Program-made: the position numbers and the translations under genes
Source of the DNA: Gammaproteobacteria bacterium
GTDB taxonomy: Bacteria > Pseudomonadota > Gammaproteobacteria > JAADJB01
Length of the DNA stretch: 40,935 bases
Assembly (NCBI GenBank): GCA_013151035.1
Contig: JAADJB010000019.1
Span: forward strand, 1 to 40,935
Direction: 5' to 3'
Shown here: in pieces, positions 1 through 5,999 of the stretch
How positions within the stretch are numbered: position 1 is the stretch's first letter
Layout: each line of letters opens with the position of its first letter
Notes under the pieces: generated by a model
Databases searched by the model: none
Told to the model about the DNA's origin: nothing
What the model saw: the letters and a program-made list of their open reading frames with translations, nothing else

Positions 1-69
1 GAAGTGTGGAAAGAATACATAAAGAACCAGAAGCCTAATGACCCTGATGATGACTTCAGTGTATTGTAG
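1..69 (+). CDS. C-terminal end of a probable REP-associated (IS200/Y1-like) transposase, partial
   Basis: Frame 1 is open from the window edge to a TAG at 67-69 and gives 22 residues ending in a DPDDDFSVL tail. The stretch EYIKNQ followed by an acidic DDDF tail resembles the C-terminus of Y1/IS200-like transposases of the RAYT type. The catalytic HUH and tyrosine parts would lie outside the window, so this rests on the tail and the context. Two REP-like hairpins follow at once, and the stop codon overlaps the GTAG tetranucleotide that typically precedes RAYT-associated REPs. Another small protein ending in an acidic tail cannot be excluded. Confidence 0.45.
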   Translation, partial: EVWKEYIKNQKPNDPDDDFSVL

Positions 70-133
70 CCCGCCTTCAGGCGGAATGAACAGCTTTCAG
101 CCGTAATTTGAAGCTACCGGCTTTAGCCGGTAG
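66..133. repeat. Pair of REP-like hairpins (REPIN/BIME-like)
   Basis: The first hairpin is ccgcc-ttca-ggcgg at 71-84, preceded by GTAG at 66-69. The second is ctaccggc-ttta-gccggtag at 114-133, an 8-bp perfect stem. A weaker agctt/aagct pairing lies between them. Two such stems within 70 bp directly behind a RAYT-like tail fit the known organisation of a RAYT gene flanked by its REPs. Confidence 0.7.
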
Positions 134-296
134 TCGTTCACATCTGGTGTAGGCGTAGAGTAGGCACTTTCGTTAAAATAAGGGCAAATTCGAACAAATT
201 TCTTCAAACAACTTACACCAAGAACATGGTGTAATTATATGATAATAAAAAGAATATACAAGACCTTAAAACAGCCTAAAAGTAACACTCAAAAAT

Positions 297-350
297 CTTA
301 AAATCCCTCGGTGGTAACACCGTGCCGGTTCGATTCCGGTCCTGGCACCA
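297..350 (+). other. 3' half of a tRNA-Leu(UAA), probable integration (att) remnant
   Basis: The anticodon loop cttaaaa (297-303, anticodon TAA) is followed by the 3' anticodon strand tccct (304-308). A long class-II variable arm pairs cggtg with caccg. The T arm is gccgg-ttcgatt-ccggt (324-340), then come the acceptor 3' strand cctggca, a discriminator C and CCA (341-350). The 5' half is absent: aaaat precedes the loop where aggga is needed, and no tgccagg acceptor strand occurs upstream. Similarity therefore starts exactly in the anticodon loop. Tyrosine integrases commonly recombine within tRNA 3' halves and leave such a duplicate at the far end of the element. The intact tRNA and the element would lie to the left, outside the window. 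Confidence 0.8.
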
Positions 351-576
351 TTTCTCAGTTGTTTTTAACAGATTTGGTTTTTTCGAAAATTTATAGCAGG
401 AACTATCTTTTATCACTGCTTAGCCTCTTACTCGTTCCTGTAATTTTCCCATCTATGACTATTCCGAGGTTAGATATAAAGAGGCTACATTCCAATCCTA
501 GAAAACTGATGTTTTTAGTGCTAGACTGTTTGATAGTATTTTATAAATAAGTGTTCTATCAACAGGTTGGCTCGAT

Positions 577-4751: not shown

Positions 4752-5999
4752 ATGTTCAAACCAATCGAATTATTTATCGGCTTACGCTATACGCGTGCCA
4801 AACGCCGCAATCATTTTATCTCCTTCATATCCATGACCTCGATGCTGGGTATTGCCCTGGGGGTGATGGCATTGATCACCGTGTTGTCGGTGATGAATGG
4901 CTTTGAGGAAGAGTTGCGTTCACGCATCCTGGGTATGGCGGCGCATGGCACCATCAGCGCCTCGGGTCGAGGGCTGGATAATTGGCAGGAGATTATTAAG
5001 CAGGTAAGGGCGCATGAAACAGTGGAGGGTGCGGCTCCTTACATTCGTGGTGAGGTGATGATTACGCACGGCAAACAGGTTGCCGGGGTTGTTCTGCGCG
5101 GCATCCTGCCACAACAGGAACCGGCTGTTTCTGATTTTGACAAGGTTATGAAAAAGGGTGAGCTAACTTCACTGGTGGCCGGGAAATACGGGATTATTAT
5201 GGGTAAGGAGTTGGCCTGGACGCTGGGTGTTGATGTCGGTGATCGGGTGACTATCGTGAGTCCGCAAAGCATTGTTACGCCTGCCGGTGGTTTACCGCGC
5301 TTACGTCGTTTTATAGTGACCGGTTTGTTTGAAGCAGGGATGTATGAATATGATCGCGGTGTTGTATTAACCCATATGGCTGATGCTGCACGCCTGTTTC
5401 GTATGCAGGATCAAGTGACGGGTATACGTCTTCGTTTTGACAACATGTTTGATGCGCCAGCAATCGTGCGTAATATTGCCAATGAGATGCAGGGTTATTA
5501 TCGAATCTCCGATTGGACGCAGCAGCATACTAATTTCTTTCGTGCGATTAAAACCGAGAAGCAGGTTATGTTTGTCATCCTTGCGCTGATTGTGGCAGTG
5601 GCAGCATTTAATATCGTTTCCACCCTGGTGATGGTGGTGACGGATAAGCAATCCGATATTGCTATTCTACGCACTCTGGGTCTGAGTCCGCGCTCGGTGA
5701 TGGGGGTGTTTCTGGTACAGGGGATCATTATTGGCCTGGTCGGCACCTTGCTTGGGGTATTGAGTGGTATCGCATTGGCTAATAATGTTGAGACTCTGGT
5801 GCCGGCTATTGAACGATTTTTTGGTGTGCAGTTTTTGCCGCCGGATGTCTACTATATTAGCCAATTACCATCGCAACTTGAGATGACTGATGTCGGGTCA
5901 ATTGCTGTGGTATCACTGGTGTTAAGTTTTTTAGCGACTTTATATCCAGCCTGGAGTGCGGCACGCACACACCCGGTTGAGGCATTACGTTATGAGTGA
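4752..5999 (+). CDS. lolC: Lipoprotein-releasing ABC transporter permease (LolC/LolE family)
   Basis: 415 residues, the length of LolC/LolE proteins. The N-terminus [20 protein letters not shown] leads into the first membrane helix (about residues 26-50) and then [21 protein letters not shown] large periplasmic domain follows, and three C-terminal helices (about 275-400) close the FtsX-like fold. With LolD it extracts mature lipoproteins from the inner membrane for handover to LolA. Only one permease gene is present next to lolD, so it may pair with a LolE encoded elsewhere or act as a homodimer (LolF-like). No good ribosome binding site is visible. The bioA repeat ends 20 bp upstream. It overlaps lolD by 8 nt. 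Confidence 0.92.

Follow-up and report, generated by a model that had tools for sequence, protein, structure and literature searches.

Does the fragment of a tRNA-Leu(UAA) gene near the left end of this DNA mark the edge of an integrated element, and, if so, where do the intact gene, the rest of the element and its integrase lie? The window (the whole stretch of DNA that was analysed) comprises the first 40,935 bases of a 121-kb contig, C19, of a 2.40-Mb genome assembled in 54 contigs. Its left end carries the following features:

1 to 69, plus strand: last 22 codons of a predicted IS200/IS605 TnpA gene, truncated where the contig begins (alignment with residues 120-141 of a Nitrobacter TnpA of 141 aa)
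70 to 142, plus strand: right end of an IS200-type element, with hairpins (matches the end of contig C30, then diverges)
148 to 166, plus strand: putative P-side arm-type integrase site, TGTAGGCGTAGAGTAGGCA (one of a unique pair in the genome; 0 expected in the window; position kept in relatives)
167 to 296, no strand: putative element DNA that separates the arm site from the crossover core (length matches the attR of relatives; no match to the tRNA 5' half)
297 to 353, plus strand: displaced 3' half of tRNA-Leu(UAA), the putative attR core (tRNA to 350, plus TTT; 95% identity with the intact copy on contig C31)
780 to 1235, plus strand: AbiEii remnant to the right of attR, not counted in the element (Pfam AbiEii, 9e-7; PADLOC AbiEii, 8e-28)

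The orphan tRNA-Leu half and the intact gene

Positions 297 to 353 (CTTAAAATCCCTCGGTGGTAACACCGTGCCGGTTCGATTCCGGTCCTGGCACCATTT) align with an intact tRNA-Leu(UAA) gene that lies in the same genome on another contig (C31:18158-18244, equal to L009:6158-6244), over 57 to 58 columns (E value, 8e-19 to 2e-19). The match begins in the anticodon loop (CTTAAAATC) and stops 3 bases beyond CCA, and the two copies differ by two C-to-T substitutions and the loss of one G. The 5' half of tRNA-Leu is absent here, with the alignment of 230 to 296 at background; ARAGORN called no tRNA in the window, and Rfam gave no match at the fragment. The tRNA-Leu half is thus real and not a chance match, and the initial annotation had described it correctly, both in its coordinates and in its lack of a 5' half. 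The complete tRNA-Leu(UAA) predicted there was also found, on C31 and in the orientation expected, but its 3' half is near-identical rather than identical to the orphan. Fragment and intact gene belong to the same tDNA and agree in orientation, which is part of the definition used by Islander, where island ends are marked by a regenerated tRNA gene and a displaced fragment and where anticodon-centred (A) sites form a large class (PMC4383910).

Upstream of the intact gene lie two 90-bp tandem repeats, 96% alike (L009:5972-6151), each of which starts with the tRNA-Leu 5' part (GCCCAGGTGGCG...GGTAGACG) and continues into a different hairpin. These repeats indicate that the locus duplicates pieces of itself, so could the orphan half have arisen by chance or by a rearrangement unrelated to integration? 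We consider this hardly credible. The boundary in the anticodon loop, the paired arm motifs and the spacing are all as in complete elements, and the presence of paired arm sites contradicts such an origin.

A putative arm-type motif at both ends of the probable island

The sequence TGTAGGCGTAGWGTAGGCA occurs, with up to 2 mismatches allowed, at only two places in the 2.4-Mb genome: at C31:18324, ~80 bp past the intact tRNA-Leu, and at window position 148, ~130 bp before the orphan half (149 bp from the start of the motif). Each copy consists of two GTAGGC units with an 11-bp spacing, roughly one helical turn, which is the repeat spacing expected of arm-type integrase sites. The exact 12-mer GTGTAGGCGTAG, contained within TGTAGGCGTAGWGTAGGCA, is shared between the right side of the intact tRNA and the left side of the orphan half. 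When the flanks were compared by best window without gaps, the score was 19/25, against 14 to 19 in shuffles, which is not significant alone; the likeness of the flanks is counted as evidence because of the shared 12-mer, which is exact and occurs nowhere else in the genome, and not because of the ungapped score. From its position, the paired repeat is best read as the putative arm-type binding site of the integrase. A literature search on the motif returned nothing relevant.

Is the same arrangement present elsewhere? We searched 369 genomes of the same class for the generalised motif WGTAGRC-N4-TGTAGRCA, using the reversed motif as a control. The motif was present in 25 genomes, and the control gave a handful of matches. 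A tRNA T-loop lay 69 to 103 bp upstream of the motif at 18 of 30 loci (tRNA genes for Met, Thr, Phe, Lys and Leu-UAA) and 159 to 171 bp downstream at another 6; with a T-loop background of 0.11 per kb, taken from viral contigs, ~0.04 would be expected per site, or about 1 case in 30. All 6 motifs with a downstream T-loop stood before or at the start of an "LTK"-type integrase gene, one of them broken. In these genomes the motif either adjoins tRNA 3' ends at fixed distances or stands just before an Arm-DNA-bind_3 tyrosine integrase that is followed by an orphan tRNA half. Arm-DNA-bind_3 and Phage_integrase domains were found in both integrases of the motif set that were tested. In viral contigs, 84 of 90 motif matches were away from any tRNA T-loop, and the motif alone is therefore not specific there; one viral contig carries motif, tRNA 3' half and motif in a single stretch, the form expected of attP.

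Whole elements could be read in three genomes, G326, G356 and G335, in the order tRNA, motif, cargo, integrase, motif and orphan 3' half. The distances from motif to orphan half were 136, 136 and 149 bp, respectively, and the orphan halves, which start in the anticodon loop, share 100%, 98% and 82% identity with the intact tRNA. In the present island, too, the motif flanks the core on either side with the spacing that relatives keep, which characterizes this Arm-DNA-bind_3 group. These complete elements provide a strong positive control for reading window positions 148 to 353 as a predicted attR.

The fragment is thus very probably the attR of a small island inserted into tRNA-Leu(UAA) by a tyrosine integrase. 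The intact gene on C31, the restriction of the arm motif to the two ends and the same layout in relatives all bear out the earlier proposal of an integrase crossover in a tRNA gene. The crossover would have fallen in the part of tRNA-Leu(UAA) that runs from the anticodon loop to the 3' end, with the integrase presumably gripping the ends through the paired arm sites. The 3' half that the island brought with it would have restored the gene, now on C31, and the 3' half first present in the host would have been displaced to the far end, at window positions 297 to 353; the two copies would since have diverged by three changes.

Several other tRNA loci are of a related kind. In this genome, a tRNA-Met (C44:10397; L112:7265-7415) has the same arm motif behind it, then TIGR04255-family cargo and a GPA gene that is broken, and represents another relative of the island; a tRNA-Arg(ACG) on C27 (L060:9278-9396), whose 3' part recurs at 98% identity on C30 (L054:10728-10814), with integrase remnants near both, is probably a second tRNA island. 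In genome G127, tRNA-Met, arm motif, the defence genes IetA and IetS and an orphan tRNA-Met half (95%) follow one another (L150:12321-16392), with no integrase in these ~4 kb. At the related loci L149, L150, L152 and L155, the genes that adjoin the tRNA arm sites often resemble defence genes (AbiD, IetAS, SLFN AlbA_2 and AAA proteins).

A probable IS200 junction, the search for an integrase and the right-hand boundary

Where does the element continue to the left of the window? The plus strand of C31 ends in residues 1-42 of an IS200/IS605 TnpA, with a Y1_Tnp match on that stub, and the window begins with residues 120-141, on the same strand and in the right order. The C terminus and the hairpins are in the window, and the middle of the gene is unassembled; a join would leave a gap of ~231 bases. 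The "RAYT-like tail" of the initial annotation is a real feature but very probably the C terminus of an IS200/IS605-type TnpA and not a strict RAYT. Since TnpA is split between the end of C31 and the start of the window, the two are probably adjacent, with ~230 bases missing between them. The order and orientation of the two pieces agree with the claim that the element and the intact tRNA lie to the left, albeit across a contig gap.

Contig C30 also ends in this TnpA C-terminal stub, matching the left end of the window over 142 to 146 bp at 98.6 to 99% identity before diverging. The IS is therefore multi-copy and has broken the assembly, and C31 could in principle join C30 instead. The window's left neighbour would then be a missing contig with an integrase, and the island would exceed 7 kb. 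Two C-terminal stubs (window and C30) were assembled against one N-terminal stub (C31), and an integrase is expected just left of the arm site, both of which fit such a longer island. We nevertheless find it unlikely, in that the tRNA core, and also the arm motif in its rarer GTAGGC form, are present in both C31 and the window, the stub on C30 is followed by what we take to be IS21-like sequence, and no integrase with the right features was found in a genome that is 97.65% complete.

If C31 joins the window, the island would extend from C31:18245 to window position 296, or ~7 kb. Its order would be tRNA-Leu, arm site, NACHT gene (containing an assembly gap), ORFs, a Phage_GPA replication protein gene and an HTH_17 gene (both on the minus strand), a cyclophilin with a PEP-CTERM-like tail, IS200, arm site and orphan half. 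The adjacent tyrosine integrase that the initial annotation led one to expect did not turn up. The island (C31:18245-24658 and window 1-296) holds no integrase gene, and neither contig carries an Arm-DNA-bind_3 integrase or an integrase remnant. The ~230-bp gap would be too short for an integrase if the join is direct. In relatives, int adjoins the right arm motif; here the IS200 end lies only a few base pairs from it. The sole Arm-DNA-bind_3 integrase of the genome is frame-broken and beside mutS on C51. It was rejected as the island's own, as were those on C48 (which looks integron-type), C40 (phage-type) and C45/C51 (Xer-length), on the same grounds: no motif or tRNA-Leu half nearby and weak similarity. 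The simplest reading is that IS200 inserted beside the right arm site and that int was lost during or after this insertion. With its integrase missing, the island is probably immobile, or "stuck."

To the right, the original chromosome had been proposed to resume at about 351. In the strict sense this is likely, since no second tRNA-Leu half or arm motif was found between 354 and 1240. However, an AbiEii remnant fills 577 to 1235 (its frame broken from 577 to 801), and GC is low up to ~1250 and higher beyond, so that an older insertion is possible there. Would the window half then be an internal boundary of a tandem array, with the older element to its right and the chromosome resuming near 1240? 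A degraded defence gene directly to the right of the half and the GC profile are consistent with this, as are the tandem att sites of relatives (a tRNA-Thr with a tRNA-Asn half at L105, and L157), but no second half or motif was found in that stretch, and we regard it as a possible but doubtful arrangement. An order-level search returned this genome alone. A direct scan of the genome contigs with the MBL-fold protein of the window found nothing, and the MBL loci of class relatives have no tRNA-Leu nearby and therefore provide no empty site.

Known islands and a putative shared arm-site code

The orphan half in itself is an ordinary footprint of a well-known kind. As in Islander islands (PMC4383910), the tRNA is regenerated, the 3' fragment is displaced in the same orientation and the crossover is in the anticodon loop; here, however, no integrase gene was found, the ends are on two contigs and the length of the interval depends on their join. 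The island works like an Islander-type island but falls outside the database's strict definition of an intact, putatively active one. Compared with the Arm-DNA-bind_3 (P4-type) elements of G326 (tRNA-Phe), G356 (tRNA-Phe) and G335 (tRNA-Met), it has TGTAGRC-N4-TGTAGRC to either side of the core with matching distances, in the GTAGGC form instead of the GTAGAC of most others, and IS200 where those have int directly beside the right arm site. It is a known kind of tRNA-gene island, apparently without its integrase.

The closest gene order is that of an HTH_17, Phage_GPA and NACHT element beside a tRNA-Thr in the class relative G128 (contig C15, L105), in which the genes have the same order relative to the tRNA, the GPA protein is 53% identical and an arm motif likewise follows the tRNA. 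That element differs in its tRNA (Thr and not Leu), and its contig is too short to show an integrase. An orphan tRNA-Asn 3' half, accompanied by a terminator and an arm motif (~4985-5035, minus strand), lies there ~110 bp past the intact tRNA-Thr, which bears its own arm motif. Are such HTH_17, GPA and NACHT islands integrase-less satellites, with arm and core sites only, that are moved in trans by other elements' integrases with the TGTAGRC arm code and carry defence genes to many tRNA genes? This would be a long shot.

What deserves following up is the shared arm-site code, which is more useful than the orphan half. In many families of the class, and regardless of the tRNA used, a set of islands has WGTAGRC-N4-WGTAGRC at both ends, at set distances from tRNA 3' ends. 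The paired repeat may thus be used to locate island ends on fragmented assemblies, as well as islands that have lost their integrase, and through it the arm-site specificity of a group of Arm-DNA-bind_3 integrases can be tested directly.
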